Source: Pseudomonadota bacterium (GTDB lineage Bacteria; Pseudomonadota; Gammaproteobacteria; Burkholderiales; JAKAFK01). From it: a DNA stretch of 64,000 nucleotides. The translations under genes and the position numbers were made by a program. Within the stretch, counting starts at the first letter, position 1. Every line of letters starts with the position of its first letter. Positions 4,343 to 46,715 of the stretch are shown piece by piece. Location of the stretch: assembly GCA_021788645.1 (NCBI GenBank), contig JAJYKK010000004.1, positions 1 through 64,000 on the forward strand, given 5' to 3'. The notes beneath the pieces were generated by a model that had not been told where the DNA came from, did not search any database, and was given only the letters and a program-made list of their open reading frames with translations.

Positions 4343-4442
4343 CGCCCAGGCAGCCTGGATAGCCAGGCGCGGTTCGCCAACGGCGCGCCCTTGCCTTGCG
4401 GCCGGCAACCCCAACGCCATTCCCCGACGAAGGAACTAGCCG

Positions 4443-4898
4443 ATGCGATACTGGTTGATGAAGTCCGAGCCCTCCGACGTGAGCATTGACGACCTGGGCG
4501 CCCTGCCGGGGCAGCGCGTGGCCTGGTACGGCGTGCGCAATTATCAGGCGCGAAATTTCATGCGTGACCAGATGCGCGTGGGCGACCAGGTTTTTTTCTA
4601 CCATTCGAATTGCGAGGAGCCGGGCATCGCCGGGCTTGCGGCGGTGTGCACGCGGGCCTATCCGGATGCGACCCAATTCGATCCGGCCAACAAGTACTAC
4701 GACCCCAAGGCGACGCTCGAGTCGCCGCGCTGGTTCAACGTCGACGTGAAGCTGGTGCGGAAGACCCGGCTCATCGGCCTCAAGGAACTGCGCGGCCATC
4801 CGGCACTCGCCCACATGCGCATCCTGCAGAAGGGCAACCGCCTGTCCATCACGCCGGTGGACCCGGCCGAGTGGAAATTCATTACCGCGCTCCTGTGA
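4443..4898 (+). CDS. EVE domain-containing protein (thymocyte nuclear protein-like)
   Basis: MRYWLMKSEPSDVSIDDLGALPGQRVAWYGVRNYQARNFMRDQMRVGDQVFFYHSN. Confidence 0.93.
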   Translation: MRYWLMKSEPSDVSIDDLGALPGQRVAWYGVRNYQARNFMRDQMRVGDQVFFYHSNCEEPGIAGLAAVCTRAYPDATQFDPANKYYDPKATLESPRWFNVDVKLVRKTRLIGLKELRGHPALAHMRILQKGNRLSITPVDPAEWKFITALL

Positions 4899-4943
4899 GG
4901 GCGTCGGCACAAGGCCCGTTGCCCTTGCGCAGGCGGCGGCGCC

Positions 4944-5681
4944 TCAGCGGCTGGCCTCGTTGTACAGATCGATGCAGCGCTTCAACGTCTGGGCCGCGTT
5001 GGCCGGGTTCGTGACCGTGCAGCCCGCGCCGAGCGCCGCGGCTCCCGTGCCGGCGGCCGGAGCAGGCGACGGCCCCGGCGCCGGCCCGGATGCCGCGATG
5101 GGGCGCCGTTTCGCCTGCGCCGTCCTGAGGTGCTGGTACTCGCTGCGCAGCTTGCGGTTCTCCTGCTCAAGGCGCAGATTCTGCTCTTGCAGCGCGTTCA
5201 AGGCGTTGCCGGGACGCGGCGCCAGCAGGCGGTGGATGAGGCCCAGTACGCCCAGCAGGATCAAGGCGGCGATGAGTCCCGCGGCGGCGAGGAGGACCCT
5301 TTTCTTCGTGAAGAGGGTCCGCGAGGGATGCTCCTCGGTGCCCGCATCCTCTTCTTCGGTCCCGCGTGTGCCGGGACCCGGAACCCCCATCGTCGCGTCG
5401 GCGGCCTCAGCCGCCGCGTCCCCCTCTTCGAGCGAATCCGATGCCGGGGGGCGCCTGACGATGCGCACGAGGATGGCCTTGAGCCGGCCGAGGAGCCCGG
5501 GGCGCAGCGGCGCCTCGGCCTCGTCGGCCTCGTCTTCCGCGGCGGGCATTGCAGCCGTCACGTCCGCGGCTTCGGCCGGCAGGTCGAGCTCCTCCACCGG
5601 TGTAGCCGCATCCGCCTCCGTGAGCTCCCGGGACAGGATTCGCGCCTTGAGGCGCGCCAGAAACGACAAGAGCTTGCGCAT
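4944..5681 (-). CDS. Hypothetical protein with acidic region, one TM helix and coiled coil
   Basis: Acidic N-terminal half, TM segment VLLAAAGLIAALILLGVLGLI, coiled coil LNALQEQNLRLEQENRKLRSEYQHLRTAQ. No family recognised. Confidence 0.6.
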   Translation of the reverse strand: MRKLLSFLARLKARILSRELTEADAATPVEELDLPAEAADVTAAMPAAEDEADEAEAPLRPGLLGRLKAILVRIVRRPPASDSLEEGDAAAEAADATMGVPGPGTRGTEEEDAGTEEHPSRTLFTKKRVLLAAAGLIAALILLGVLGLIHRLLAPRPGNALNALQEQNLRLEQENRKLRSEYQHLRTAQAKRRPIAASGPAPGPSPAPAAGTGAAALGAGCTVTNPANAAQTLKRCIDLYNEASR

Positions 5682-6059
5682 GCACGACGTCCAGGCTGCT
5701 TCGCCGACGGGGATCCGCGGCTCCCGTGCCCGATGGTGCGGGGAGAGCGATGCGCCGGCGGGAAGATTGATGGCTCAAAAAATCCCTTTACGGCAATTGC
5801 GGCAGTTTTCGGCGCTCCTTGAGTTCCGCGGCGCCCGGAAGGGAGTGGCGTCGAGGCGGCAATGCGCCCTCGCCTCCCCGGAAACCTTGGCGGCCGCCTC
5901 GCATTTGAGGCCATCGGGGCGTCCAATCTGGCCTATCCTTAGGAGGTTCGTTTCTGGTCCAGACGGCGAGGCGGCCAAACCGGCAGGCGGGCTGTCCCCA
6001 CCCTGCGCGCCGTCCGGCGTCTTCTGATCAACCCGCGTGTCCGGGAAAGGAGGGGTGCC

Positions 6060-7592: not shown

Positions 7593-10500
7593 ATGACCAC
7601 TGAACGAACCGCTGTGCTGCTGCAAGCCCTGGCCTCCCGCATCCTCGTGCTCGACGGGGCCATGGGCACCATGATCCAGGGCTACGGCCTCACCGAGAAG
7701 GACTACCGGGGCAGCCGCTTCGCGGATTTTCCGTACGACCTCAAGGGCAACAACGATCTCCTGTCCCTGACCCAGCCCGCCATCATCCGCGCCATCCATG
7801 AGGCCTACCTGGCGGCCGGCGCCGACATCATCGAGACCAACAGCTTCAATTCGACCGGCGTGGCGATGGCCGACTATCACATGGAGGACCTGGTCTACGA
7901 GCTCAATCTCGAGGCGGCGCGTCTCGCCCGGGCGGCCGCCGACGACGCGCAGGCGAAGACGCCCTCCAAACCCCGCTTCGTGGCGGGGGTGCTAGGACCC
8001 ACCAACCGGACCGCGTCCATTTCGCCGGACGTGAACGATCCGGGCTTTCGCAACATCACCTTCGACCAGCTCGCGCAAGCCTACGGCGTGGCGGTGCAAG
8101 GCCTCCTGGACGGCGGCGCCGACATCCTGATGGTGGAAACCATCTTCGACACGCTCAATGCGAAGGCCGCCCTCTTCGCCATCGAGACGCTCTTCGAGGC
8201 GCGCGCGCTCACCGTCCCCGTCATGATCTCGGGCACGATCACCGATGTGTCCGGACGGACGCTGTCCGGACAGACGGCGGAGGCGTTCTGGAACGCGCTG
8301 CGCCATGCGAAGCCGCTGTCCATCGGCCTCAATTGCGCATTGGGCGCGAAGGAACTGCGCCAGTACATCGAGGAGCTCTCGCTCAAGGCCGATGCCTTCG
8401 TGAGCGCCCATCCCAATGCCGGACTGCCCAATGCCTTCGGCGAATACGACGAGACGCCGGAAGCGATGGCGCGCGAGATCCGCGAGTGGGCGCAAGCGGG
8501 GCTGCTCAACATCGTCGGCGGCTGCTGCGGCACCACGCCCGCCCACATTGCCGCCATTGCCCAAGCCGTCGGCGATGTGGCGCCCCGGGCGCTGCCGGTC
8601 ATCGAGAGGCGGCTGCGGCTGTCCGGGCTGGAGGCGCTCGACATCGGCCCCGATTCGCTCTTCGTGAATATCGGCGAGCGCACCAATGTGACCGGATCGA
8701 AGGCCTTCGCGCGGCTCATTTCCGCAGGCGATTACGAGCAGGCGCTGGCGGTCGCGCGCGCCCAGGTGGAAAACGGGGCCCAGATCATCGACGTCAACAT
8801 GGACGAGGCGATGCTCGACTCGGAGCGGGAGATGGTGGCCTTCCTGAACCGCGTCGCCGCGGAGCCGGACATCGCGAAAGTGCCGGTGATGATCGACTCC
8901 TCCAAGTGGTCGGTGATCGAGGCGGGACTCAAGTGCATCCAGGGCAAGGGCATCGTGAACTCGATCAGCCTCAAGGAGGGCGAGGAGGAATTCGTGCACC
9001 GGGCGCGCGCCTGTCGCCGCTATGGGGCGGCTGCCGTGGTGATGGCCTTCGACGAGCGGGGGCAGGCCGACAGCCGGGCGCGCAAGGTGGAGATCTGCAC
9101 GCGCTCCTACCGCATCCTCACCGAGCGGGTGGGGATGGCCCCCGAAGACATCATCTTCGATCCCAACATCTTCGCGGTGGCCACCGGCATCGAGGCGCAC
9201 AACACCTATGCGATCGATTTCATCGAGGCGACGCGCGAGATCAAGCGCACGCTCCCCTATGCCAAGGTGAGCGGGGGCGTGTCCAACGTCTCCTTCTCCT
9301 TCCGCGGCAACGACCCGGTGCGCGAGGCGATCCACACCGCCTTCCTGTACCACGCGGTGGCGGCCGGCATGGACATGGGGATCGTGAATGCGGGCCAGCT
9401 GGGCGTCTACGCGTCCATCGAACCGACGCTCCTCGAGCGCGTCGAGGACGTGCTGTTCAACCGGCGGCCGGATGCCACCGAGCGGCTGGTCGAAGTCGCG
9501 GGCCAGGTGAAGGGCGTGGCGCGGGAGCAGACCGAGGACCTGTCCTGGCGCGAGGCGCCGGTGCGCGAGCGCCTGGTGCACGCGCTCGTCAAGGGGATCA
9601 CCAGCCACATCGTGCAGGACACCGAGGAGGCGCGCCAGGGGGCCGGGCATCCCATCGAGGTGATTGAAGGTCCCCTGATGGACGGGATGAACGTGGTGGG
9701 CGACTTGTTCGGCGAGGGCAAGATGTTCCTGCCGCAAGTGGTCAAGTCGGCGCGCGTCATGAAGCAGGCGGTCGCCCATCTCGTGCCCTACATCGAGCAG
9801 GAGAAGTCGCGGCTCGGGGAGGCGGCGAGGGCCAAGGGCAAGATCGTCATGGCGACGGTCAAGGGCGATGTGCACGACATCGGCAAGAACATCGTGGGCG
9901 TGGTCCTGCAGTGCAACAACTACGAGGTGATCGACCTGGGCGTGATGGTCCCGGCCGCCAGGATTCTCGACACCGCCCGCCAGGAGAACGCGGACATCGT
10001 CGGGCTGTCCGGACTCATCACCCCTTCCCTGGAAGAGATGGCGCACGTGGCGAAGGAGATGGCGCGCCTGGGCATGGACATTCCGCTGCTCATCGGCGGG
10101 GCGACCACGTCGCTGTCGCATACCGCCGTCAAGATCGCGCCCCACTATGGCGGCCCCACGGTCTACGTGAAGGACGCCTCGCGCAGCGTGGGCGTGTGCA
10201 TGAATCTGTTGTCCAGGGACTTGCGCGCCCCCTATGTCGAGCGGCTCAAGGCCGAGTATGCCGAGGTGCGCGAGCGCCATCAGACCCGCAAGCCGGTGGC
10301 GCCCCGCGCCAGCCTGGCGGCGGCGCGGGCCAACGGGCTTGCCACCGACTGGTCGGTCTATCGCCCGCCCGTGCCCAAGCGGCTCGGGATCCAGGTGTTC
10401 AGGGACTACCCCTTGGCGGAACTCGTGAGCCGCATCGACTGGACCCCGTTCTTCCAGACCTGGGATCTGCACGGCAAATATCCCCAGATTCTGGACGACG

Positions 10501-11279
10501 CCGTTGTGGGCACCCAGGCGCGCGCGCTGTTCGCCGACGCGCAGGCCATGCTGCGCCATATCGAGGACGAGCGATGGCTGCAGGCCCATGCGGTGATCGG
10601 CTTGTTCCCGGCCGCCCGGGTCGGCGACGACATCGAGGTCTACCGCGACGAGTCGCGCGCCCAGGTGCTCGAGGTCTTCCATGGCCTGCGCCAGCAGATG
10701 GAGAAGCCGCCGGGCCGCCCCAATCTGTGCCTGGCCGATTTCGTCGCCCCCAGGGAGTCCGGCGTGCGGGACTATGTCGGCTTCTTCGCCTTGACCACCG
10801 GCGCCGGCCTGGATGGGCACGTGGCGGCGTACGAGAAGGCCCACGACGACTACAACGCCATCCTGGTCAAGGCGCTTGCGGACCGGCTGGCGGAAGCCTT
10901 CGCCGAACGGCTCCACGAGCGCGTGCGCAAGGAGTTTTGGGGCTATGCGGCGGACGAGAGGCTGACCAACCAGGCGCTTATCGACGAGCAATACCGCGGG
11001 ATTCGCCCGGCGCCGGGCTATCCGGCGTGCCCCGACCATACCGAGAAAGGGCCGCTCTTCGAGCTCCTCGGGGCCACCGCGAACGCCGGCATCACGCTCA
11101 CCGAAAACTTCGCGATGTGGCCGGCGTCCTCCGTTTCGGGCTTCTATTTCGCCCACCCGGACGCCAGTTATTTCGCCGTCGGCAAGATCGGCGAGGATCA
11201 GCTGGCGGATTATGCCGCGCGCAAGGGCTGGGACGGCGAGACGGCGAGGAAATGGCTGGCGCCGATCCTGGCCGCTTGA
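7593..11279 (+). CDS. metH: Cobalamin-dependent methionine synthase
   Basis: [29 protein letters not shown]12 motif [32 protein letters not shown]-terminal AdoMet activation domain ([15 protein letters not shown]). Confidence 0.97.
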
Positions 11280-11285
11280 GCCGCG

Positions 11286-11735
11286 TCAGGGATCGCGGCA
11301 CCATTTCGCCACCTGGTCGCGCCAGTAGGCGAGGTTGGCCTGCTCGCCCAGGGTCAGGTGGGCGCGGGCGACATCGTAGGGGATGAGGCGGATGCCGTTC
11401 GTGTCCTCGTCGAAGCGCAGCAGCCCCAAGGCGTTGGCGCACTGTCGCGCCTGCCGGGCGAACAGGGGCCCGGCGCCATCGATCGACCGGCGCTCGGGCC
11501 GCGCGCGTCCATGGGCGAGGGCTTGCGTGCGGGCGAGCGCGCGCTGCTCGTGCCGGCGGACCGCTGGCGTGACCGGCGCCGCAGCGGGCAGCTGCAGACG
11601 CAGCGCGGGCCGCCCCCGCGGCCGCGCGCTCGAATAATGGACCTGGTGCCGGCTGTCGGTCCATCGGTAGATGGCGCTCGAGGCGGTGGCCGGAAGCAGG
11701 GCGATAACCAAGGCGACGGCCAAGCGACGGCCCAC
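11286..11735 (-). CDS. DUF4124 domain-containing protein
   Basis: Signal peptide then SSAIYRWTDSRHQVHYSSARP. Confidence 0.8.
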   Translation of the reverse strand: MGRRLAVALVIALLPATASSAIYRWTDSRHQVHYSSARPRGRPALRLQLPAAAPVTPAVRRHEQRALARTQALAHGRARPERRSIDGAGPLFARQARQCANALGLLRFDEDTNGIRLIPYDVARAHLTLGEQANLAYWRDQVAKWCRDP

Positions 11736-26237: not shown

Positions 26238-27638
26238 TCAAGTGCCGGCGGGCGTCTTGGGGCACCGGGCGGGCAGGCGCACGGTGAACGTCGTGTAGCC
26301 GTTCCGGCACGACACGCCGATGGTGCCGCCGTGCAGCTCGACGATCGATTGGGTGATCGCAAGGCCCAGCCCGACGTGGTCCGCGGCGTCTCGTTGGCGC
26401 GCGGCCTGTGCGCGATAGAGGCGCTCGAAGATCCGCGTCCTTTCGGCTTCCGGAATTTCCGGACCGGGATTGGTCACGGAAAGGATCGCGTCGCCGTCAT
26501 CCGACAGCGCCATGTGCAGCCGGATTGCCTCGCCGCGCGCGGTGAACGCCAGCGCGTTGGAGAGCAGGTTGGAAATCGCGCGCCGCAGCATGAGCTTGTC
26601 CGCCGTGAGCCGCGCGCGGCCGGTTTGCACCAGGCGAACGCCTTGTTCGGCTGCGGCCGCCTCATAGAACGCGAACAGCGCGGCGACTTCCCTTTCCAGA
26701 TCGAGTGTCTCGCGGTTGGGCGTCTCCAGCCGATGGTCCGCCTTGGCCATGAACAGCATGTCGGCGATGATCCGGGACAGTCGCTGGCATTCCGCCTCAT
26801 TCGCCTGCAAGGCCGCGCGATAGCGCGGGAGCTCGGCGGCCCCATCGAGCGTGACCTGGGTCTGAAGCAGGCAATTGTTGAGCGGCGTGCGCAGCTCGTG
26901 GGTGAGGTCGTCCGAGAACTGCGCGAGGCGGCGAAACGAATCGTGCAGACGGGTGCGCATGCGCTCGAAGGCCCGGACGAGCTCCGCCAGCTCCCGCGGC
27001 ACCGGAGCGCCGGCCACGGGCTGGTCGAGGGTGTGCGCGGACAGCGCCGCCATGCGGGCGGAGAGTTCGGCGAGCGGCGAGAGCCCCTGCCGCACGACCA
27101 GCCAGCCGAGGCCCCCCAATGCCAGGCCGATGGCGAGGATGGTGAGGTCGATCATGCGCTCGAAGTGGCGCAGGAAAACCTGATCGTGCGTGATGTCCAG
27201 CCCGATCGCCACGCGCACCGGCCGAGCGCCGGGGATGGCGACGGGCATCCGCGCCGCCGCGACCAGCAGGACGCGAGACCCGACGGTGAGGGTCGCCGGG
27301 GTGGCCGGGGGGATTGCGGCGAGGCGGCGGATCTCGGCTTTCGCGCCGAAGGCGTCCCGAAGGGTGCCCTGATCCGCGATCAGGAAGACCATGCCGGGAT
27401 GGCCATAGCGGATGTCCGGGGCCCGGTCCTTGAGGCGGGCCCAGTCGGCAGGGGTGCGCACGGTGCGCAGCATTGCCCTGGCCCAGGCGACCTTGCCGCA
27501 GAGTTCCCGGCGGGCGTTGCCGAGAAGGCGCGCGTTGCCGAGGTAGGCGACCCCCATGCTGGCGAGCAGCATGGTGGCCGTGACCGACAGCGCGAACAGG
27601 AGCGCGATGCGGGCCCTGAGGGAGAGCGGCCCGTTCAC
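26238..27638 (-). CDS. Sensor histidine kinase (heavy-metal/QseC-like)
   Basis: Two TM helices, HAMP, H-box [20 protein letters not shown]-box [18 protein letters not shown] start overlaps the stop of the upstream response regulator gene. Confidence 0.92.
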
Positions 27639-28315
27639 GGGGCGCGCGCTTCCAGCACGTAGCCGACGCCGCGAACCGTGTGAATGAGCTTCGGTTCGAA
27701 CCCGTCGTCCACCTTGGCGCGTAGCCGTCGCACCGCGACGTCGATGACGTTGGTCCCGCCGTCGAAGTTCATGTCCCAGACCTCCGCGGCGATCAGCAGG
27801 CGCGGAAAGACCTCCCCGGGATGGCGCATCAGGAGCTCGAGCAGCGCGAATTCCTTGGCCGTGACTTCGATGCGTCGGCCCGCCCGCACCACGCGTCGAC
27901 GGACAAGATCCATTTCGAGATCGGCGACGCGCAATCGGTCGATCGCGTGGGGCGTCTGGGCGCGGCGCAGGCGTGCGCGGATGCGGGCGAGCAGCTCGGG
28001 GAAGGCGAAGGGCTTCACCAGATAGTCGTCGGCGCCCAGGTCCAGGCCCCTGACGCGGTCGTCGACCTGGTCGCGGGCGGTGAGGACGAGCACCGGCACC
28101 TCCTTGCCCGCGGCCCGCAGGCTCTCGAGCACGTGCCAACCGTCGAGGACCGGCAGCATGACATCGAGCACGATCAGGTCGAAACGCTCGGTGAGCGCGC
28201 AGTGCAGGCCGTCGCGGCCGTCCTTGGCCCAGTGCACCCTGAAGCCTGCCTGCGTGAGCCCCCTTTCGAGATACTCGCCGGCGCCTTCCTGGTCCTCAAC
28301 GATCAGTAACCGCAT
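27635..28315 (-). CDS. OmpR/PhoB-family response regulator
   Basis: [41 protein letters not shown]...[17 protein letters not shown]; winged-helix C-terminus. Confidence 0.95.
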
Positions 28316-28377: not shown

Positions 28378-29213
28378 CCATTTGTTTGAGAGTGCTCCTT
28401 ACCATATAGCCGTCTCTCTCTGTCCCCATTCTTGAACCCGTGGATGGGCGCGGCATAGAAACAAGATCTGTTGATCTGTAGATATAGGTATTCGGGGAAC
28501 TTGCGGGGCGCTGTGGGGGGCGGCGAAGCGTGCGTGAAGCGAAGGGGCTGCAGCATTCGATCCTTTGGTTTGGCCCTGCCGGCGAGGCACTGGTCAACAT
28601 GAACGCGCGCAGGCTTAAGCCGGCCCATCCGGGCAGGGACCGGCGCGTGCGGTCCTTAGCCGCGGGGAGCGTGGCGCGTTGCGCGCGTATTATCGCCCGA
28701 GGCGGGGGCATTGGGCAATGCCCAATACGCGCTTTCGCGGCGCCTGTGGCCGTGTCGCGGGTTCCCAGGGGCGAAAGGATCGCTCGAACCGTGCGACGAA
28801 CACAGGGGGCGGGGCGTGGGGCGACAGGTGCTTCCCGAGACACCGGAGAGGCGCGGCGAGCAAACACGGATGGGGACTGGCATGCGTGAGCCTGTGGGGC
28901 GGGTGGCGGGAATCGATTTCGGGAGAGGCGGCATCGTGGCCGCTCGCGAATCGGGAGGCGCGGATGACGCACGGCCGCAGGCGGCTTTGCCCAGGGGTAC
29001 ACCAAAATTGTTGCATAATTGCGACACTTGCGGCTTTTCTACCAGACTGTAAGGATGGTGTAAGGAATAGTCGATATAAGGATATTAAGATCAACTGATC
29101 TTGAGGTGTGCCGGGAGTGCACGAGGACGTCGAGATCGCTTGCTCTTAAATTGGGAGTGTCCGCTTCAGGACTTTTGATGCTGTGAAACGTCTCTTCGCT
29201 CTAAGGGGGCAAA

Positions 29214-30560
29214 ATGAAGCAAAAGTTTAAGCTTAATAAGTTGTCCGTCGCCATCACATCGGCGGCGACGCTTGCCACGTTGGGATTCTCCGGGCAGGCG
29301 CTGGCCGTGCCGAGCTATGCGCGCCAAACGGGTCTCGCTTGCGAAGCGTGCCATACGATCTTCCCCGAACTGACTGCCTTCGGACGCACGTTCAAGCTGA
29401 ACGGCTACACGCTGACCGGCCTGCAGCAGATCGAAGCCGCCAACGGCCAGGCCCTCAAGATCAATGCCGGCGCTCCGCTATCCGTCATGCTCCAGGCGTC
29501 CGTGTCGAACGAAGGGAAGCGTCCGCCTGGGGGGCAGAACAACAACACGGAGTTCCCGCGCCAGTTGAGCTTCTTCTATGCGGGTGAGATTTCCCCGCAC
29601 ATGGGGACCTTCATCCAGGTCACCAACGCGCAGAAGGACGGGGGCGTGGGTTTCGGCATTGACAATTCTGATGTCCGCTACGCCAACCACTACGGCACCG
29701 ACAGCATCTGGGGCTTGACGCTGAACAACAATCCGTCGGTCCAAGACGTCTGGAACGACACGCCGGCCTGGGGATACCCCTGGATTCATTCGGGCGAAAA
29801 ACCCTACGACCGCTTCCTGCCTGATGGCGCCACGAAGAACGCCCCCGGAGCTCCGGACATTATGCTGGACAGCCTGGGGCAGGCCGTTGCTGGTTTGGGC
29901 GCCTACACGATGATCGACAATGCCTGGTACGCGGAGTTGTCCTTCTATCGCTCTGCCAACATGGGCACCCTGGTCGAGCCGGTTGCCGGATCGATCAATG
30001 GTCTTGCTCCCTACGCGCGCGTTGCCTGGCAACATAATTTCGGCGACATCTACTGGGAAATCGGCGGCTTCGGCATGCAGACCCAGGAACTCGACGGCAA
30101 TGGCAACGAAAACGTGTACAAGGATCTCGGCCTGGACTCGCAATTGGAAATCCCCGTCTCAGGCAGCGACTTGCTAGCCCTGCACGCACGCTATTCGCAT
30201 GAGACTCAGGACTATGGCACTTCGGGGGCGGCTGCCGGGGCGAGTGCTTCGAACTCCAGCGACACGCTGAAGAACTACCATATCGACGGCATCTATCACT
30301 TTGGTCATGTGGCCGACGTGGGGCTGGGATGGGACGACTGGACCGGCACTTCGGATGCAGCCCTGTACGCCTGGGGCAACGGGACCACGAACGTGGGCGG
30401 GAGTCCGGACACGGCTTCCTGGACCGCTCAGGTGGAATACCTGCCTTGGGAAAACACCAAGCTGGGCCTTCAGTATCGCGCCTACACGAAGTATGTTGGC
30501 TCGACGAGCAGCGTGTCGAACGACAACTACCTCATGGCGTACGGCTGGTTCGCTTGGTAA
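29214..30560 (+). CDS. Exported monohaem cytochrome c fused to predicted outer-membrane beta-barrel (Cyc2-like)
   Basis: Signal peptide then AVPSYARQTGLACEACHTIFPELTAFGRTFKLNGYTLTG (single CxxCH), then about 400 aa of strand-like aromatic/Gly-rich sequence ending ...LMAYGWFAW. Confidence 0.75.
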   Translation: MKQKFKLNKLSVAITSAATLATLGFSGQALAVPSYARQTGLACEACHTIFPELTAFGRTFKLNGYTLTGLQQIEAANGQALKINAGAPLSVMLQASVSNEGKRPPGGQNNNTEFPRQLSFFYAGEISPHMGTFIQVTNAQKDGGVGFGIDNSDVRYANHYGTDSIWGLTLNNNPSVQDVWNDTPAWGYPWIHSGEKPYDRFLPDGATKNAPGAPDIMLDSLGQAVAGLGAYTMIDNAWYAELSFYRSANMGTLVEPVAGSINGLAPYARVAWQHNFGDIYWEIGGFGMQTQELDGNGNENVYKDLGLDSQLEIPVSGSDLLALHARYSHETQDYGTSGAAAGASASNSSDTLKNYHIDGIYHFGHVADVGLGWDDWTGTSDAALYAWGNGTTNVGGSPDTASWTAQVEYLPWENTKLGLQYRAYTKYVGSTSSVSNDNYLMAYGWFAW

Positions 30561-30939: not shown

Positions 30940-31443
30940 ATGGATGATAACGTGAATCGCGTCGACGGCTGGCAAAGGCGCCGCAAAGGGCTGGGGGTGA
31001 TCGCAGGGGCGCTTGCGCTTGCGCTCAGTGTCCCGGCCAGCGCCGCAGGGACCGCAGGGGGCGACGCCGCGCTCACCGAGCAGCTCAAAGCCCTTCAGGC
31101 CGCCATCAGCGCGCTGTCGGCCAAGGTGGACGCCCTGCAGAAGAAACAGGCTCAGGCGCCGGCGCCCTCGCCCCAGGCGACTGAAGCGGCTGCCCGGCAG
31201 GCCGTCCAGGAGATTGAGCAGCAGAAGGTCAAGCTGCAAGACGCCTGGGACAGCATCAAGCTTGGGCTGTCGAAGTCGAGGGTCCGGGCGCTTCTGGGGG
31301 AACCTTCCACCCGCTTCTCGCTCAATAGTGACCAGCGGATCTGGTATTACTCCTATCCCGGCAAGGGGTCCGGGTCGGTGATCTTCGGCCGAGACGGGAA
31401 GGTTACCGGGAGCCAAAAGCCGCCCGGGATGAGTTTCTGGTGA
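30940..31443 (+). CDS. Exported coiled-coil protein with BamE/SmpA-like C-terminal domain
   Basis: Signal peptide; heptad-like ALTEQLKALQAAISALSAKVDALQKKQ; C-terminal IKLGLSKSRVRALLGEPSTRFSLNSDQRIWYYSYPGKGSGSVIFGRDGKVTG. Confidence 0.65.
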   Translation: MDDNVNRVDGWQRRRKGLGVIAGALALALSVPASAAGTAGGDAALTEQLKALQAAISALSAKVDALQKKQAQAPAPSPQATEAAARQAVQEIEQQKVKLQDAWDSIKLGLSKSRVRALLGEPSTRFSLNSDQRIWYYSYPGKGSGSVIFGRDGKVTGSQKPPGMSFW

Positions 31444-31536: not shown

Positions 31537-31832
31537 ATGGGCCTCGATCCTGAGAAAACATCCAGACGGACGTTCCTGGCGACCGGCGTGACGCTCGCCG
31601 CCACGGCCGCCGCGGCGGTGGCCGGGATGGGCATGCGGCTGGCGCCGGCCAAGCTGTCGAAGGCGGCGCTCCATTACCGGAACACGCCGGTCGGCGGCAA
31701 GGCAGCAGCAATTGCATCCAGTTCGTCGCGGGGCCGCAACCCGATGCCGACGGCACCTGCCAAGTCGTGGCCGGCGCCGTCAGCCCCCACGGCTATTGCG
31801 TCGCCTACTCGCCGAACTGGGGAAGCCGCTAG
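31537..31832 (+). pseudogene. High-potential iron-sulfur protein (HiPIP) gene with apparent 1-nt deletion frameshift
   Basis: Frame 1 gives SRRTFLATGVTLAAT...ALHYRNTPVGGKA. The next frame gives SNCIQFVAGPQPDADGTCQVVAGAVSPHGYCVAYSPNWGSR*. Inserting one T after 31704 joins the frames and creates the missing first ligand Cys (GGKACSNC). Confidence 0.85.
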
Positions 31833-32182
31833 CGGATGCCAGCGGTGCCGCGGACGGCGCGCGGCAACGGCGCTAACGCCCTGAGCGGGTGGGTAAAAAT
31901 TCCTTCGCGCGGCATAAAAAAATTTTTCTCGAGAGGGTTGCCCAAAGACGAACTCTTTGCGCTATACTTGGTCCAACATGATAAAGGATATGGAGATCCC
32001 ATTATCTACCTGATTGGACTATTTTTTGATTTCCGTCCCGTCGGGCGCGAGGCGATGGCCGATGGGGTCCTGCGGTTGAGAGATTAAACGTTGTGCGCCG
32101 TGCGTGAATCGGTGCGACCGGCGTGCCAGCGGTTTTACACTTGGCATATTTCCAACCTTTGCTTCTTAAGGAGTAAACAGCG

Positions 32183-32467
32183 ATGAGCATCAAGGACGAA
32201 AAAATCTCCCGGCGGACGTTCCTCAAGGGCAGCGCCATGCTGGCCTCCATCGGTGTGGTCGCCGCCACCGGCGCGCTGAGCCGCTCCGCCTACGCCGGCG
32301 TGCCCAAGGCCGCCATGCAGTATCAAGACAAGCCCAAGAACGGCCAGCACTGCTCGAACTGCATCCAGTTCGTCCCTGGTGCTTCCGCCAAGGCTGCCGG
32401 CAAGTGCAAGCTTGTCGACGGTGCCATCAGCCCGAACGGCTGGTGCGCGGCCTACTCCGCCAAGTAA
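32183..32467 (+). CDS. High-potential iron-sulfur protein
   Basis: Tat signal SRRTFLKGSAMLASIGVVA; cluster ligands HCSNCIQFVPGASAKAAGKCKLVDGAISPNGWCAAYSAK. Confidence 0.95.
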   Translation: MSIKDEKISRRTFLKGSAMLASIGVVAATGALSRSAYAGVPKAAMQYQDKPKNGQHCSNCIQFVPGASAKAAGKCKLVDGAISPNGWCAAYSAK

Positions 32468-33051: not shown

Positions 33052-33918
33052 TCAATGCGGCGTCGATACGTGGATCTCCATGCGCCGGAAAGCTTCCTTC
33101 AGCCCGTCGGACAGGCTCGCGCGCGTGGTGACGTTGCCGAGATCGATGTTCAGGTTGGTCAGCGCCCGGGCGATTTCCGGACGAATCCCCGTCAGGATGG
33201 CATCGGTGCCCATGAGCTGCACCGCGCGCACCATCTGGATGAGATGGTGCGAGACCTGGGAGTCGATGGCGCGCACGCCGGTGACGTCCATGACGACCGC
33301 GCGGGCGCGATCGCTGGCGATGCGGTTGAGGAGCGCTTCCATGATCAGCATGGTCCGGCTGGAGTCGAGCGTCCCGATGATCGGCAAGGTGAGCACCCCG
33401 TCCCAGATTTCGGTGATGGGCGTGGCGGTCTCGCGCAGTTCCTCCTGTTGCGCGTAGATCGTGCGCTCCTTCTCCTCGAGGTAGGACTCGAACACCACGA
33501 GCGACAATTCGTTGAACACGTTGGACAACAGCAGGAGAATGGCGCGCACGCCGTCGCCGTCCACGCTCTCGTCGCCTTCGAGCGCCTCGATGAAGATCTT
33601 CTGCAGAAACTGCGCATAGCGCAGGAAGTCGGCCATGCGGCCGCCGCGCAGAAGAATCTGCTTGGCCACGTTGCTGAAGAAGCCCTGCAAGGCCTTGAAC
33701 TCGGCCGTCTGGTGATCGAGCGGGTTGTCGGTCTTGAAGAGCGCGACCATCAGCTCCAGAAATTCAACGCTGAAATCGGAAATCTCGTCGGCGCTCATGA
33801 TCTGGTTCGCGCCGAAGACATCGCGCGCGCGCGCCTCGATCAGGGAAGACATCCTCCCGATCTGAAGCTTCGTCTGCTCGAGCAAGGTGCGTCGGGTCTT
33901 CGACATCGCATTGCGCAT
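33052..33918 (-). CDS. RsbR-like protein (RsbR N-domain + STAS)
   Basis: ATPITEIWDGVLTLPIIGTLDSSRTMLIMEALLNRI...AVVMDVTGVRAIDSQVSHHLIQMVRAVQLMGTDAILTGIRPEIARALTNLNIDL. Confidence 0.9.
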   Translation of the reverse strand: MRNAMSKTRRTLLEQTKLQIGRMSSLIEARARDVFGANQIMSADEISDFSVEFLELMVALFKTDNPLDHQTAEFKALQGFFSNVAKQILLRGGRMADFLRYAQFLQKIFIEALEGDESVDGDGVRAILLLLSNVFNELSLVVFESYLEEKERTIYAQQEELRETATPITEIWDGVLTLPIIGTLDSSRTMLIMEALLNRIASDRARAVVMDVTGVRAIDSQVSHHLIQMVRAVQLMGTDAILTGIRPEIARALTNLNIDLGNVTTRASLSDGLKEAFRRMEIHVSTPH

Positions 33919-34012
33919 GCTTCTTTTCCTTTCGTTACGACAATTGCCGATGCAAACGGCCGCACCCTACGGCGCCGCCGGGCTCTCGACGGTATGCGCG
34001 CGCGCCCGCGCG

Positions 34013-35062
34013 TCAGGCCGCGCGCGCCGTGGCCACGCACACCGATTGGTCGTCGGTCGCGCGTCCCATGACGTTGCCGAGCAGGTAGGCGACCACCTGC
34101 GGATGCTGATGCACAAGGCCCGGGAATTCTCCGGCCACGGAACGATTCCGGATGCCGTCGCTCGCGGTGATGATGGTGCACTGGCGCCGGCACGCGATGT
34201 CGGCGACGACCGGTTCTTCGTGCTCCTTGCCGAGGATCCCGGGCGCAAAGCCGAGACTGGATACGCTCTCGTCGCTATGAATCTGGGCGGACATGTCGCC
34301 CACGCCTGCCAGGCAGGCGCTGCCGCGCGCAAGATCGAGGGTGACCGCGACCCCGACGGCGCCGCGCCGCGACGCCAGCGTCTGATCGACTTGTCGCAGC
34401 AGACGCTGCGGCGCGACCCCGAGGGCCACCGCCGAGGCCAGTCCGTCGGTGGTTTCCTGCGCCTCCAGGCCGTGCCCGAGCCCGTCCAGATGGATCCAGG
34501 CCAGGCGCTGCCCGTCGATTTTAAGGTAGACCCGATCGCCGTTGTAGCGGTCGTCCGCGAGCGATCGTGAAAACAGACCCACCCGGACGTGCGGTTGCCC
34601 GAGCCGCTCCTTCGGGGCATGGACCGCCCGGAAACGCGCCCACACCAGCGTGCCGTGCCAGCGGGGCGGGCCGGGCGCCCGCGGCTGCGTGTACAGCCCC
34701 CACTCGTGCGACAACCGCGCGATGCTCCCGAGGCCCTTGCCCAGGGTATGTGCGGTCGAGAAGCCGTCCTGCGCCGCCTGCACGGGGTCATCGATGCCGC
34801 CGCCGAAATCCAGCGCGACCAGGTCGAGGGTCTGTCCGGGCTGCTGCCAGACCTGCACCAAGCCGCGGCGGTGCGCATGCTTGAGCTGATTGCTGGCCAT
34901 CTCCGCGGCCGCGAGCGTCATGTTCTCCCGGTCAGTCTCGACAAACCCGAGCCGGCGCGCCGCGGCCTGCACCCGTGCGCGCAGGAGGACGCCATCGCTC
35001 TCGTCCTGGATGAGGCTGTTGTACAGCAGGCGGCAGGCATCGCGGCTGTCCACTTCGGTCAT
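34013..35062 (-). CDS. Fused RsbT-like ATPase + RsbX/SpoIIE-like PP2C phosphatase
   Basis: N-terminal GHKL motifs AAAEMASNQLKHA, DFGGGID, GKGLGSIARL. C-terminal PP2C motifs NGDRVYLKIDGQRLAWIHLDGLGHGLEA and ITASDGI. Confidence 0.88.
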   Translation of the reverse strand: MTEVDSRDACRLLYNSLIQDESDGVLLRARVQAAARRLGFVETDRENMTLAAAEMASNQLKHAHRRGLVQVWQQPGQTLDLVALDFGGGIDDPVQAAQDGFSTAHTLGKGLGSIARLSHEWGLYTQPRAPGPPRWHGTLVWARFRAVHAPKERLGQPHVRVGLFSRSLADDRYNGDRVYLKIDGQRLAWIHLDGLGHGLEAQETTDGLASAVALGVAPQRLLRQVDQTLASRRGAVGVAVTLDLARGSACLAGVGDMSAQIHSDESVSSLGFAPGILGKEHEEPVVADIACRRQCTIITASDGIRNRSVAGEFPGLVHQHPQVVAYLLGNVMGRATDDQSVCVATARAA

Positions 35063-36051
35063 GCCGCCACGTCCTCTAGCCCGGAAGACAGGAACGTCTC
35101 GGAATGGACCGCTCCCTTGGGGTCGCGCACCGCCAGCACGATGCGTCCGCGTCCGGTGCCCTTGGCCTGGTACAGTGCCTCGTCGGCGCGCCGGATGAAG
35201 GCCTGCAAACTGGAATCGGCGGGTTCCCGCCCCGACAGGGAGGCAAGGCCGATGCTGACGCGGCCATCCATCGCCGCAAGCACCTCCTTCGCCTTCTCGA
35301 CGGCGATATCCGCGCCGGCGAAGATCAGCATCGCGAACTCGTCGCCGCCGAAGCGGAACGCGTAATCGACCTCGCGCCGGATGACCGAGCGCATCGCGTC
35401 GGCCATCTTGCGCAGATACGCGTCCCCCGCCTGATGCCCGAACTCGTCATTGACCGCCTTGAAGTGATCGAGATCGAATAGGGCGAGGCACAGGGATTCG
35501 TCCTTCTGGCGAAGGGTCCGGTTGAACGCGCACGCGACCCGGTCATCGTAGGCGCGGCGGTTCAGCAGTCCGGTCAGGGCATCCGTTTCCGCGCGCCGCA
35601 GCGATTCGCGCAGTTCCATCTGGCGCTTCTCCAGGATCTGCTGCAGCGCCTCCAGCTCCGCTTCCGTGCGGGCCCGGGTCTCCTCCAGGTAGCGCGTCAT
35701 CTCGGCATTGCGCCGCTGAAGCAAGGAGGGGTCGACATCCTCGGTGGAGTGCAGAAGGCGCTGCCGCAGTTCGTCGACCAGCGGCGCCATGGGCGGCGGG
35801 CGAAGCCGCACGATCTCGGTGGCCTGATCCTGCCATTCGACGCGCAGCCGATCCCCGTCGAGGGTGAGCCGGACAGGCAGGGGCTGATGGAGTTGGCTGC
35901 GGGCCATGCGAAGCCGGCGCGCGGCGTCCAGCGTCGGCAGCGTCGCCGCAAACGCGTTGGCCCCGAGCGCCCTGGCCGATTGCAGGACGAACCCGAGGAA
36001 GGTTTGCAGATCCGGCTCGATCGTGAGGTTTTGCGTCAGGAGCTCCACCAT
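35059..36051 (-). CDS. Diguanylate cyclase (GGDEF) with N-terminal uncharacterised domain
   Basis: DALTGLLNRRAYDDRV...FDLDHFKAVNDEFGHQAGD...FRFGGDEFAMLIF; ATGA overlap with the RsbT/X gene. Confidence 0.93.
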   Translation of the reverse strand: MVELLTQNLTIEPDLQTFLGFVLQSARALGANAFAATLPTLDAARRLRMARSQLHQPLPVRLTLDGDRLRVEWQDQATEIVRLRPPPMAPLVDELRQRLLHSTEDVDPSLLQRRNAEMTRYLEETRARTEAELEALQQILEKRQMELRESLRRAETDALTGLLNRRAYDDRVACAFNRTLRQKDESLCLALFDLDHFKAVNDEFGHQAGDAYLRKMADAMRSVIRREVDYAFRFGGDEFAMLIFAGADIAVEKAKEVLAAMDGRVSIGLASLSGREPADSSLQAFIRRADEALYQAKGTGRGRIVLAVRDPKGAVHSETFLSSGLEDVAA

Positions 36052-36649
36052 ACCCACCGATCCTCCTTCCTGGCCGCTCATCCCCGTCGTGTTTGCGCCG
36101 CACGCCCCTCCGGGCGCGGCCTGGCCGCGTGGGTTGTTTTCGTTCGTATGACGCCCGATTATGCGCCCAAACGCAGGAAATAGGAAGCATACGCGTCGGT
36201 TGCATCCCTCGTCTGGCCGGCGCCCGGGATGCTCGGCGCCTCCGGTGGTTCGGAGCAGTGGCGCGGGGGGGCTCTCGAAGGATTCCGGCGTCGATCCGCC
36301 GGTGCCGGTCGGTGCTCCTCCTAGCCCCTTCCGGGTCCCGGCGCGGCTGCGCAATGCCGACGGCGCCGGTGCCGCTGTCGAGCCCGCCCGCGGGTGCGAC
36401 GGGGTGCCGATCTCGCCTGCGGAGATCGGCCCCGAGCGTGCGTCCGGGATGCCCTTGCCCTCCCGCTTCCAGGGCCGCTGCGTTCTGCGCCGCGGCGCGA
36501 CCCTTCCCGCAGCGCAAGGCCTTCTTGGGGCCCCGGGGTTCCGGCCCGCGCCCGAACCTTTGGGCGATGCCGCGGTCTCATCGTTTAACCCAGTCATAGA
36601 CCCGCCCTGCCAGGCAAGCGCCTGGAAGCGGCGGCAACGGAGTCGCCTC

Positions 36650-38491
36650 ATGTCTTCCAGCGATCGCGGCGCTGCCCCGCGCGGCGGCGGGCGCGGCTCG
36701 CCTCCGCGCGCGCGGTGCCCAGTGCCGGCCCACCCCGTTCAGAAAGCGTCCGTCCCCGAGCGGGGGGCGCTTGTTCCCGACGCCGACATCGACCATGCCG
36801 ACGACGGCATCCTCATTGCAGATACCCGCGGGCAGGTGACCGCGATCAATGGGGCCTTTGCCCGGCGAACCGGGTATGGCGCGCGCGATGTGCTCGGCAA
36901 GCCGCTCCGGACGCTTGAGCTCGCCGCCGCGCCGGCATCCGCCTATGGCGCGCTGCGCGAGGCGCTCGCCCGCAGCGGGTGCTGGCGGGGCGAACTCATG
37001 ATTCGCCGGAAAAACGGGGAAACCGCGCGCGAGCAGGTGAGTGTCAGCGTCGCGCGCGACTGCGGCGGCCAGCCGACCCACTACATCGCCGTATTCTCGG
37101 ATTGCGCGAACGAGTTCCGCAAACGGCTTTCGTTTGCGGCACACCACGACGAACTCACCGGGCTGCCCAACCGCAAGCACTTTTTCGAGCGCCTGGCCCT
37201 GGGGATCGAGCAGGCGGCGAGGCACGGGCGGCGGCTGGGCGTGCTGTTCCTTGATCTCGATCATTTCAAGGCCATCAACGACACCCTGGGCTTCGAGGCG
37301 GGCGATGCGCTGCTCGGGCAGGTGGCCGCCCGGCTGCGCACCCTGGCGTCCGGCGAGGACCTGCTGGCGCGCGTGGGCGACGATGAATTCACGCTGCTGG
37401 TCGAGGCCGACCCCGATGCCGCGGCGCTCGCCCATGCGGCCGCGCGGATCGTGCGCGACCTGACGCCGCCCTTCTCGGCGCAGGAGGCCACCTTGGTGCT
37501 CTCGGGCTCGGTCGGCATCAGCCGCTACCCGGAAGATGGGCGCGATCCGCACGAGCTCCTCAGGAATGCGGAGCTCGCGATGTTCGAGGCCAAGGGGCAT
37601 GGCCGCAATCGGCACGCCTTCTATTCGCGGCGCCTGCAAAGCGGCCTGCGCGAACGGTTCCTGTTGACCAACGATCTGCGCGGCGTCCTGGAGGGCGATG
37701 CCCTGGTGCTGCACTACCATCCCATCATGGACGTCGCGGCCGGAACCATGAGCGGGGTGGAAGCGCTCGCGCGCTGGAAACACCCGGTCTTCGGGCTGGT
37801 GCCGCCCGAGCGCTTCATTTCGCTCGCCGAGGACGCCGGCCTGATTGCGGCCCTGGGCACCCGCGTCCTGGCGGGCGCATGCCGGCAGCTCAAGGCCTTC
37901 GATGCGTCCGGCATGGCGGGCCTGCGGATGGCGGTCAACCTGTCCGCCTTGCAAGTGCGGCAGCCCGATGTCGTGGCGCTCGTGCGGCGGGCGATCGAGG
38001 AAGCGGCGGTGGATCCGGCGCGCATCGAGATCGAGATCACGGAAAGCGCCATCATGCAGGACACCGAGGACTCCCTGGCCGTGCTGCGTGCGCTGAAGGC
38101 GTTGGGGGTGGGCATCGCGATCGACGATTTCGGCATGGGCTACTCGTCGCTGGGCTACCTGCGGCGCTTTCCGGCGGATCGGCTGAAGATCGACAAGGCG
38201 TTCATTGCCGAGGCGGCGAACCGGCGCGAGGACGCGGCGATCCTGGATGCGATCATCGCGCTGGCGCGCGCCCTCGGGCTCAAGGTCGTCGCCGAAGGCG
38301 TGGAACGCGCGGAGCAGCTCGAATTCCTGCGCTCGCGCGGCGCCCACGAGGCGCAAGGCTTCTATTTCAGCCCGCCGCTTGCGCCCGAGATGCTCCTGCA
38401 GGAACATGCCCGCCTCCATGAGGCGTTCGCCCGCCGGGCACCGCACGCTGCCGGGGCAGAGGGCTTGTTGAGCGGGGCCGTGGCGCGATAG
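36650..38491 (+). CDS. PAS-GGDEF-EAL protein (GGDEF site degenerate: GDDEF)
   Basis: DGILIADTRGQVTAINGAFARRTGY; ARVGDDEFTLLVE; GVEALARWKHP; IEIEITESAIM; IAIDDFGMGYSSLGYL; VVAEGVE. Confidence 0.93.
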   Translation: MSSSDRGAAPRGGGRGSPPRARCPVPAHPVQKASVPERGALVPDADIDHADDGILIADTRGQVTAINGAFARRTGYGARDVLGKPLRTLELAAAPASAYGALREALARSGCWRGELMIRRKNGETAREQVSVSVARDCGGQPTHYIAVFSDCANEFRKRLSFAAHHDELTGLPNRKHFFERLALGIEQAARHGRRLGVLFLDLDHFKAINDTLGFEAGDALLGQVAARLRTLASGEDLLARVGDDEFTLLVEADPDAAALAHAAARIVRDLTPPFSAQEATLVLSGSVGISRYPEDGRDPHELLRNAELAMFEAKGHGRNRHAFYSRRLQSGLRERFLLTNDLRGVLEGDALVLHYHPIMDVAAGTMSGVEALARWKHPVFGLVPPERFISLAEDAGLIAALGTRVLAGACRQLKAFDASGMAGLRMAVNLSALQVRQPDVVALVRRAIEEAAVDPARIEIEITESAIMQDTEDSLAVLRALKALGVGIAIDDFGMGYSSLGYLRRFPADRLKIDKAFIAEAANRREDAAILDAIIALARALGLKVVAEGVERAEQLEFLRSRGAHEAQGFYFSPPLAPEMLLQEHARLHEAFARRAPHAAGAEGLLSGAVAR

Positions 38492-43787: not shown

Positions 43788-44591
43788 TCAGAAGAACGTG
43801 CTGACCGCGGCGTCCAGCGCGTCCCGCATGTCGGGATCGTCGGTGATCGGCCGCACCAGGGCGACCCGGCAGGCGGCCTGGGGCGCGACGCCCTGGCGGA
43901 TCAGGCTGCCGGCGTAGATCAGCATCCGCGTCGACAGGCCCTCGTCCAGGCCGTGGCCCTTGAGATTGCGCGAGCGCTCGGCGATGGACACCAGCTTGCC
44001 GGCCACCTCGGCGTCGATGCCCGCCTCATGGGCGACGATCTCGGTCTCGACGGCGTGCGCCGGATAGGTGAAGTCGAGGCCGCCGAAGCGCTGCTTGGTG
44101 GATTGCTTGAGGTCCTTCATCAGGGACTGGTAGCCCGGGTTGTAGCTGATCACGATCTGGAAGTCCGGGTGGGCGTGGACCAGCTCGCCCTTCTTCTCGA
44201 GGGGCAGCACGCGCCGGTTGTCGGTCAGCGGATGGATGACCACGGTGGTGTCCTGGCGCGCCTCGACCACCTCGTCGAGATAGACGATGGCGCCTTCGCG
44301 GGCGCCGATCGCGAGCGGGCCGTCCTGCCACGTCGTGCCCTCGGCGGAGAGCAGGAAGCGGCCAACCAGGTCGCTCGCCGTCATGTCCTCGTTGCAGGCC
44401 ACGGTGATCAGCGGCTTGCCCAGGCGGTGCGCCATGTATTCGACGAAGCGGGTCTTGCCGCAGCCGGTCGGGCCCTTGAGCATCAAGGGCATGCGCACCG
44501 AGTAGGCGGCCTCGAACAGTGCCACCTCGTCGGCCACGGGCCGGTAGTAGGGTTCCGTTTCGATACGGTATTGGTCGATGACATTGGACAT
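43788..44591 (-). CDS. cbbQ: RuBisCO activation AAA+ ATPase CbbQ
   Basis: [46 protein letters not shown]; Walker [12 protein letters not shown]. Confidence 0.96.
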
Positions 44592-44645
44592 GTCCGCTCC
44601 TGATTGTTCTGTCGGCCGGCAAACGCGCCCGCCCTTGAAAGCAAA

Positions 44646-44676
44646 AGCCCCCGCCGCGTCGGGCGCGGCGGGGGCT
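44646..44676 (-). terminator. Terminator-like hairpin between cbbS and cbbQ
   Basis: Perfect 13-bp inverted repeat AGCCCCCGCCGCG-N5-CGCGGCGGGGGCT; minus strand continues TTTGCTTTC. Confidence 0.75.
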
Positions 44677-44701
44677 GTGGGGTACTTCAGGCCGCCGCGC
44701 G

Positions 44702-45049
44702 CTAGACCGTCTTGCCGCGGTAGATCACCATGGCGGTGCCCTGCGACTGCTTGAAGTTGTCGTAGCCGACCAGGCGCACGTGGTTGTTCGGGTTCGCCTT
44801 GTGGCAGGCTTCGGCCTCGGCGAGGATGCGGTCGACATCGGTCTCGCCGAACATCGGCAGCTTCCACATGTACCAGTAGGAGTCCATCAGGTGTTCCGGC
44901 TCGGTATGCTCGATGGCCGGATTCCAGCCCTTCTTGACCAGGTACTCGACCTGCTGGCGGATCTCGGCCTGGTCCATGGCCGGCAGGTAGGAGAAGGTCT
45001 CGAACTTGCGGCTCGCCGGATCGGAAAGACGGGAGTTGTAGTCTTGCAT
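44702..45049 (-). CDS. cbbS: RuBisCO small subunit, form IA
   Basis: [67 protein letters not shown]. Confidence 0.97.
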
Positions 45050-45119
45050 TTCAGTTTCCTCGTATACGGTTGCCTGGCGGCGGGAGCGGGCCCGAAGCGC
45101 GCTCCCGCCCGCGGGTTGC

Positions 45120-46541
45120 TTACTTGTGGGCCACGTCCAGCTTGTCCACGGTGTCGAACTCGAACTTGATCTCCTTCCAGGTTTCCATGGCGATCTTCAG
45201 TTCGGGGCTGGATGCGGCGGCCTTGGTCAGGATCGCCTTGCCGTCCTTCTCGATGGCCACGCCCTGGTTGCGGGCCTCGACGCAGGCTTCCAGCGCGACC
45301 CGATTGGCGGCCGCGCCGGCGGCGTTGCCCCAGGGGTGGCCCAGCGTGCCGCCGCCGAACTGCAGCACCGCATCGTCACCGAAGATGGTCACGAGCGCCG
45401 GCATGTGCCAGACGTGGATGCCGCCCGAGGCGACGGCGAAGGCGCCGGGCATGGAGCCCCAGTCCTGGTCGAAGAAGATGCCGCGGCTGCGGTCTTCCTT
45501 GACGTACTTCTCGCGCAGCAGGTCGATCCAGCCCAAGGTGGCCTCGCGGTCGCCTTCCAGCTTGCCGACCACGGTGCCGGTGTGCAGATGGTCGCCGCCC
45601 GACAGCCGCAGGATCTTGGTCAGGACGCGGAAGTGGATGCCGTGGTGCGGGTTGCGGTCGAGCACGGCGTGCATGGCGCGGTGGATGTGCAGCAGCATCC
45701 CGTTGTCGCGGCACCAGTTGGCGAGCCCGGTGTTGGCGCAGAAACCGCCGGTGATGTAGTCGTGCATGATGATCGGCGCGCCGATCTCCTTGGCGTACTC
45801 GGCCCGCTTGTACATCTCCTCGGGGGTCGGGGCGGTGACGTTGAGGTAATGGCCCTTGCGCTCGCCGGTCTCGCGCTCGGCCTTGTGGATCGCCTCCATG
45901 ACGAAGTCGAAGCGCTGGCGCCAGCGCATGAAGGGCTGGCTGTTGACGTTTTCATCGTCCTTGGTGAAGTCGAGGCCGCCTCTCAGGCACTCGTACACGG
46001 CGCGGCCATAGTTCTTGGCCGACAGGCCCAGCTTCGGCTTGATCGTGCAGCCGAGCAGCGGGCGCCCGTACTTGTTCATGATGTCCCGCTCGACCTGGAT
46101 GCCCTGGGGCGGACCGCCGCAGGTCTTGACGTAGGCAATGGGGAAGCGCACGTCTTCGAGGCGCAGCGCGCGCACCGCCTTGAAGCCGAATACGTTGCCC
46201 ACCAGGGAGGTGAACACGTTGACGACCGAGCCCTCTTCGAACAGGTCGATGGGGTAGGCGATGAAGGCGTAGAAGCAGGTGTCGTCGCCCGGGACGTCCT
46301 CGATCGCATAGGCGCGGCCCTTGTAGTAGTCGAGGTCGGTCAGCAGATCCGTCCAGACGGTCGTCCACGTGCCGGTGGACGACTCGGCGGCCACGGCGGC
46401 GGCGGCTTCCTCACGGTCGACGCCGGCTTGGGGCGTGATCTTGAACACCGCCAGGATGTCGGTGTCCTTGGGCGTATAATGGGGTTCCCAGTAGGTGCTC
46501 CGGTACTCCTTGACGCCTGCGTTGTACGTCTTGACTGCCAT
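45120..46541 (-). CDS. cbbL: RuBisCO large subunit, form IA
   Basis: [38 protein letters not shown]...active site [20 protein letters not shown]. Confidence 0.98.
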
Positions 46542-46715
46542 GGCTGATCTCCTGTTGAAGGCTTTCCTATACCCACTCATCCGCTGGGGTTGTGCGAATG
46601 ATTCCCAGCACTATACTAGCCTCTGAAGATAAGATATAGTCACGATTTCTAATGCTAATCATAAGTTGAAATATATACCACGCCGGCCGGGTGGCCGGCC
46701 GGAATGGAGCCCGGG

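Follow-up and report, generated by a model that had tools for sequence, protein, structure and literature searches.

A Cyc2-family cytochrome-porin gene linked to BamE-fold and HiPIP genes in a Burkholderiales genome

Cyc2 is the most widespread candidate marker for iron oxidases. A stretch of 64,000 nucleotides from a Burkholderiales genome (contig JAJYKK010000004.1, positions 1 to 64,000; hereafter the window) carries on its forward strand a gene, at 29,214–30,560, that was originally predicted from the sequence letters to encode a Cyc2-like fusion of a monohaem cytochrome c with an outer-membrane barrel. The questions raised by this locus are whether the product is a genuine Cyc2, from what donor and to what acceptor it might carry electrons, and which of the neighbouring genes might assist it.

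The cyc2 open reading frame begins with ATG, with AAGGGGG just upstream, and encodes 448 amino acids, among which PSYARQTGLACEACHTIFPELTAFGRTFKLNGYTLTG is present letter for letter as first reported. The predicted signal peptide (residues 1–31; 29,214–29,306), recognised by eye and containing a helix at residues 9–24 in the AlphaFold model, runs to ...SGQALA/VPSYARQT, the ending ...SGQALA being followed by VPSYARQTGLACEACHTIFPELTAFGRTFKLNGYTLTG. The haem c motif CEACH (residues 43–47; 29,340–29,354) lies shortly after it and contains the only two cysteines of the protein; at this amino-acid composition, chance alone would yield approximately 0.0002 CXXCH motifs. A plug segment of the form AVPSYARQT-GLA-CEACH-TIF-PEL...FGRTFK is common to 115 aligned sequences, among them a Cyc2-like protein from an Acidithiobacillus ferrooxidans plasmid, and 97–100% of them keep each of P33, R37, Q38, T39, C43, C46, H47, P51, L53, G57, R58, F60 and K61, and this conservation extends to a long-branch group (f74) whose sequences appear to be Mariprofundus-like. 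C43, C46, H47, P51, G57 and F60 are found in 115/115. Within the GRTFK plug motif (residues 57–61; 29,382–29,396), whose residues are candidates for the haem site, R58 is kept in 111 sequences and K61 in 113; since neither a Met nor a second His is conserved family-wide in this alignment, K61 of FGRxFK may, speculatively, contribute to the haem site.

The published Cyc2 consensus comprises AXPXFAR[Q/K][T/Y], CXXCH and PXL (PMC8406198), to which the window protein answers with AVPSYARQT, CEACH and PEL (in CEACH-TIF-PEL), and its 448 residues exceed the minimum length of 365. The one-letter departure, Y for F, fails the strict pattern PXFAR[QK][TY]. However, strict PXFAR is passed by just 64 of the 115 sequences, Y occupying the F position in 29 and S replacing A in 16, whereas a relaxed screen allowing F/Y and A/S is passed by 114. 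As every other feature and the full-length homology hold, the Y is best read as variation inside the Cyc2 family and not as grounds for exclusion. Screening letter for letter with PXFAR would drop the window protein and approximately 44% of the aligned sequences (51/115). The spacing from the haem-motif His to the Pro of PXL is three residues in 92 sequences including this one, five in 13, and four in all nine Mariprofundus-like sequences scored, so the original remark that the motif lacks the longer spacing of neutrophilic Cyc2 was correct.

An AlphaFold2 model, built from a 45-row alignment of the window protein and proteins of the fetched loci with two plasmid-record rows left out, contains exactly 16 beta strands between residues 89 and 447 (pLDDT 78, pTM 0.78) and an N-terminal plug at residues 36–62 of low to moderate confidence. 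This is the outcome anticipated when a structure prediction was proposed as a check, and the barrel-like sequence ends, as had been noted, in a Trp (...GWFAW). Foldseek comparison with the PDB gave the 16-strand porins OmpU, OmpT, OmpF and OmpC as best matches (E approximately 1e-11 to 1e-9), and OprP, which Keffer et al. single out as structurally related to Cyc2 (PMC8406198), was also among the matches. Approximately 360 of the 448 residues are porin-like and the best fold matches are general porins, as would be expected of an ordinary porin or nutrient channel that had acquired a CXXCH by chance and has no redox role. Such an origin is highly improbable given the invariance of both cysteines and of the surrounding plug motif in 115 sequences, and the very low chance expectation for CXXCH. 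Sequence searches of Pfam, NCBIfam and the PDB matched the product to no family, which is a gap in the libraries and not evidence against membership. Collectively the conserved plug motif, the full-length alignment across six phyla and the predicted 16-strand barrel with its N-terminal plug support the Cyc2-like architecture originally proposed, and the product as a genuine Cyc2-family fused cytochrome-porin.

Relatives of this protein were matched in 81 of 398 genomes sampled from all over the phylum, and at least 574 pattern-matched stretches in a public genome collection encode one. From these at least 574, the 80 closest loci were retained, and they come from Pseudomonadota, Acidobacteriota, Gemmatimonadota, Bacteroidota, Chlorobiota and Ignavibacteriota; the fetched set is without the chromosomal Acidithiobacillus ferrooxidans Cyc2, Cyt572 and the Mariprofundus ferrooxydans PV-1 Cyc2. 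A quick maximum-likelihood tree places the window protein in a clade with 100% support, together with its ortholog in a sister species of the same genus (G001) and a protein from a metagenome-assembled genome (L046), the closest named relative at 64% identity. The clade sits inside a large non-Mariprofundus group, and a long branch parts the window protein from the Mariprofundus-like sequences. The suggestion of a divergent Cyc2 clade therefore stands in part: there is a small, fully supported clade outside the Mariprofundus-like group, but the three-residue spacing is the commonest form and no peculiarity. The sister species also encodes another Cyc2 that is more distant (L012), of which the window genome has no counterpart at the search threshold. 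Two copies of cyc2 stand a few kb apart in some relatives (L073, at 4395–5738 and 9992–11347; L053).

The sister-species ortholog is 92% identical and its gene order is kept. Third codon positions at conserved residues are just 70% identical between the two, which argues that the protein is under purifying selection and that its conservation is not merely a matter of recent divergence. The same comparison draws attention to the cyc2 leader (29,038–29,213, forward strand), since the last 176 bp before the gene are 88–100% identical per block (44–48 of 50 positions for the leader blocks), whereas the spacer further upstream is 52–86% identical. By eye, the leader contains an 11-bp direct repeat, TGTAAGGATGG/TGTAAGGAATA, at 29,048–29,069 and a 16-bp palindrome, AAGATCAACTGATCTT, at 29,087–29,102. 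Repeats with an 11-bp spacing are used by OmpR-type regulators, and these elements are possibly a response-regulator site. Divergent from cyc2, on the reverse strand, lie a candidate regulator of the OmpR response-regulator type (27,635–28,315) and an open frame that includes a HAMP/HisKA sensor kinase (26,238–28,139), both kept in the sister species. The N-terminus of the latter is probably over-long, because its start was set mechanically and it overlaps the regulator gene. We hypothesise that this two-component pair controls cyc2. A promoter scan of the cyc2 strand found no sigma-70 site.

What might such a protein do here? The best explanation of the locus as a whole, and one that we regard as probable, is that Cyc2 takes up electrons, most likely from Fe(II), and passes them through a HiPIP to an oxidase with the assistance of a BamE-fold partner. 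Cyc2 would be exported by Sec and have haem c attached to CEACH; its C-terminal 360 residues would form a 16-strand outer-membrane porin, with the monohaem domain as a plug in its periplasmic mouth. Dissolved Fe(II) is the most likely donor; this or another small, diffusible reductant would enter the pore and reduce the plug haem, and the electron would exit at the periplasmic side to a TAT-exported HiPIP and from there reach an inner-membrane oxidase, with part of the electrons being driven uphill for CO2 fixation. The host would then be a chemolithoautotroph that also carries soxB. Our analysis supports the protein family, the conserved plug, the predicted fold, the conserved neighbourhood and the lithoautotrophic gene content on which this scheme is built, while Fe(II) as the donor, its entry, the reduction of the haem and the periplasmic exit of the electron are proposed by analogy with Cyc2 proteins that have been tested (PMC8406198). 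The gene content of the genome includes soxB, a haem-copper oxidase (COX1) and three RuBisCO genes, of which one lies inside the window. The RuBisCO large subunit gene in the window is followed by CbbQ (43,788–46,580), and genes for a class II fructose-bisphosphate aldolase and pyruvate kinase are found nearby.

The identity of the donor invites a different reading, in which the protein is an outer-membrane monohaem redox valve with the Cyc2 fold and no iron oxidase by dedication: it would take up electrons from an electrode, from Mn(II), from organics or from other cells, or release them to Fe(III). Members of the family occur in Acidobacteriota, Gemmatimonadota, Bacteroidota and numerous Proteobacteria that are not known as iron oxidisers, the function of the family is uncertain outside characterised members and known iron oxidisers (PMC8406198), and in acidithiobacilli Cyc2 isoforms are reported to take part in the reduction of ferric iron as well (PMC10715153). 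Nevertheless, three biochemically tested Cyc2s, one from each published cluster, all oxidise Fe(II) (PMC8406198), and a lithoautotrophic gene set together with a HiPIP fits high-potential electron uptake, so that we consider another donor or direction distinctly unlikely.

Uptake of electrons from Fe(II) through Cyc2 also calls for an acceptor, for which the HiPIP genes provide candidates. They were originally placed immediately downstream of cyc2; in fact a gene with a BamE domain (30,940–31,443) intervenes, and just one of the two HiPIP genes is intact. The first (31,537–31,832, forward strand) is frameshifted relative to the sister species by a one-base deletion near 31,699, at the codon of the first cluster Cys, and represents either a pseudogene or an assembly error. 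The second (32,183–32,467, forward strand) encodes a TAT-exported protein of 94 amino acids that is 99% identical in the sister species. It scores 39.8 bits against the HiPIP family PF01355 (cutoff 22) and 75.9 bits against Iro NF041615, below the cutoff of 100, and is thus described as Iro-like without being filed as Iro. Its leader (31,950–32,182) is largely identical in the sister species too; a conserved segment there carries TTGGTCCAAC, followed at some distance by TTGGACTA, and the two may form an inverted repeat. A conserved cluster of STAS-domain, SpoIIE/HATPase-like and diguanylate cyclase genes adjoins the HiPIP genes at 33,052–36,651 and resembles a module leading from a partner switch to c-di-GMP. 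HiPIP candidates that matched a regular expression alone and had no TAT motif were set aside as noise from out-of-frame matches.

A HiPIP gene adjoins cyc2 in 7 of 86 loci with enough flanking sequence, a distribution that requires four or more changes on the tree. In L017/L019, L027, L118 and a Caballeronia locus (L043) it is found upstream of cyc2 or beside it, and in the genus of the window downstream. The HiPIPs might nonetheless be unrelated to Cyc2, having come to lie there by chance or through shared regulation while serving thiosulfate oxidation or shuttling electrons from bc1 to the oxidase. The soxB gene fits a role in thiosulfate oxidation, the A. ferrooxidans Hip is more probably associated with the oxidation of sulfur (PMC4725956), the intact HiPIP gene is 1.6 kb from cyc2 with a conserved leader of its own, and the closest relative outside the genus, L046, has neither a HiPIP nor a BamE-like gene near cyc2, so neither partner can be obligatory. 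Set against this are the recurrence of the arrangement on several branches, on either side of cyc2, and the fact that no photosynthetic reaction-centre gene was found in the genome, so there is no reaction centre for a HiPIP to serve. We judge an unrelated role to be somewhat unlikely. A photosynthetic shuttle was rejected on the same absence. Gene linkage points to the HiPIP as the putative acceptor of Cyc2 electrons, and the idea of an electron-uptake locus in which an outer-membrane cytochrome feeds a HiPIP is plausible, as the linkage recurs in unrelated lineages and has a published precedent. With no reaction centre, and only a weak, sub-cutoff match to rusticyanin in the genome, it is reasonable to suppose that the HiPIP could stand in for rusticyanin.

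Comparison with known systems places the locus more precisely. Like the Mariprofundus ferrooxydans PV-1 Cyc2 and the family in general (PMC8406198, PMC7029218), the window protein has a signal peptide, a single CXXCH, a motif of the AXPXFAR type, PXL, a length above 365 amino acids and a predicted 16-strand porin resembling OprP; it differs from the PV-1 protein in having Y for F, a His-to-Pro spacing of three and not four, a long branch between them, and a BamE-like gene and a HiPIP as neighbours. The A. ferrooxidans Cyc2 of the rus operon shares the fold class and the plug, a comparison made through a plasmid-encoded Cyc2-like protein (tblastn E 3e-38, 29.5% identity) and not the chromosomal Cyc2, whereas the window has no adjacent cyc1, cup, cox or rus and has a HiPIP where rusticyanin would be. 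As described in PMC5566968, a Bradyrhizobium cluster (Percak-Dennett 2017) likewise combines cyc2 with a HiPIP gene, so that the linkage itself is not new; that cluster includes three periplasmic cytochromes c, of which none is seen beside the window cyc2, which has the BamE-like gene. The proposed scheme would work in the manner of PioABC of Rhodopseudomonas palustris, an outer-membrane iron oxidase feeding a periplasmic HiPIP (PioC), but the architecture differs, since in PioAB the cytochrome is a decahaem protein of its own that sits in a far larger barrel, and the window genome is without a reaction centre.

The gene between cyc2 and the HiPIPs (30,940–31,443, forward strand), which the original prediction did not mention, encodes a secreted protein of 167 amino acids that combines a coiled coil with a BamE fold. 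It reaches 24.1 bits against BamE PF04355 (cutoff 23.2), and its structure model consists of two long helices (residues 42–72 and 78–104) and a confident BamE-type domain. The fold matches in the PDB are OsmE (E 1.1e-3), BamE (2e-3) and 9vnj (1.7e-2), with probabilities of 0.99–1.00, and in the last of these the matching domain sits on the barrel of AtaA, a trimeric autotransporter; from the title of the entry we read this domain as TpgA (chain B). The N-terminal domain of TpgA thereby provides a precedent for a BamE-type domain that binds a barrel. In contrast to BamE, OsmE and TpgA, the window protein adds a long coiled coil and no lipobox was seen in it; as a housekeeping bamE is encoded elsewhere in the genome (contig C23, 82 bits), it is a relative with the BamE fold and not BamE itself.

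An iterated HMM search found homologs of this gene at 13 of 97 cyc2 loci with enough downstream DNA, all in Pseudomonadota, always on the same strand and directly downstream of cyc2, with five changes on the tree. The open frames stand from a slight overlap to 653 bp away from cyc2; that of L056 starts further upstream, its likely start codon lying after cyc2. The homologs conserve W103, WYY (W135–Y137), G-x-G-S-V at 143–147 and P161, and 12 of the 13 have a Trp in the terminal region. No BamE-fold gene stands next to cyc2 in L046 or in the non-Pseudomonadota relatives examined, and the gene is thus not essential to the family. We infer that the product is a dedicated assembly or docking partner of Cyc2; more speculatively, it would most likely bind the periplasmic face of the barrel. 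It is a tentative proposal, with nearly even chances, that a subset of Pseudomonadota Cyc2s has such a dedicated periplasmic partner, docking on the haem-plugged face for barrel assembly or bringing an acceptor, be it HiPIP or cytochrome, to the haem.

Among the papers searched, none connects Cyc2 with BamE or barrel assembly factors. The cyc2 gene itself adds one more member to a known family, and what seems new at the locus, and is the part worth pursuing, is the conserved and previously unremarked BamE-fold neighbour that may help Cyc2 to work. With its HiPIP, its linked BamE-fold protein and no rusticyanin gene nearby, the locus is a compact case for how Cyc2 is assembled and what accepts its electrons. 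If the proposal is true, the BamE-fold partner would add to the Cyc2 pathway of iron oxidation a subunit that has so far gone unrecognised.
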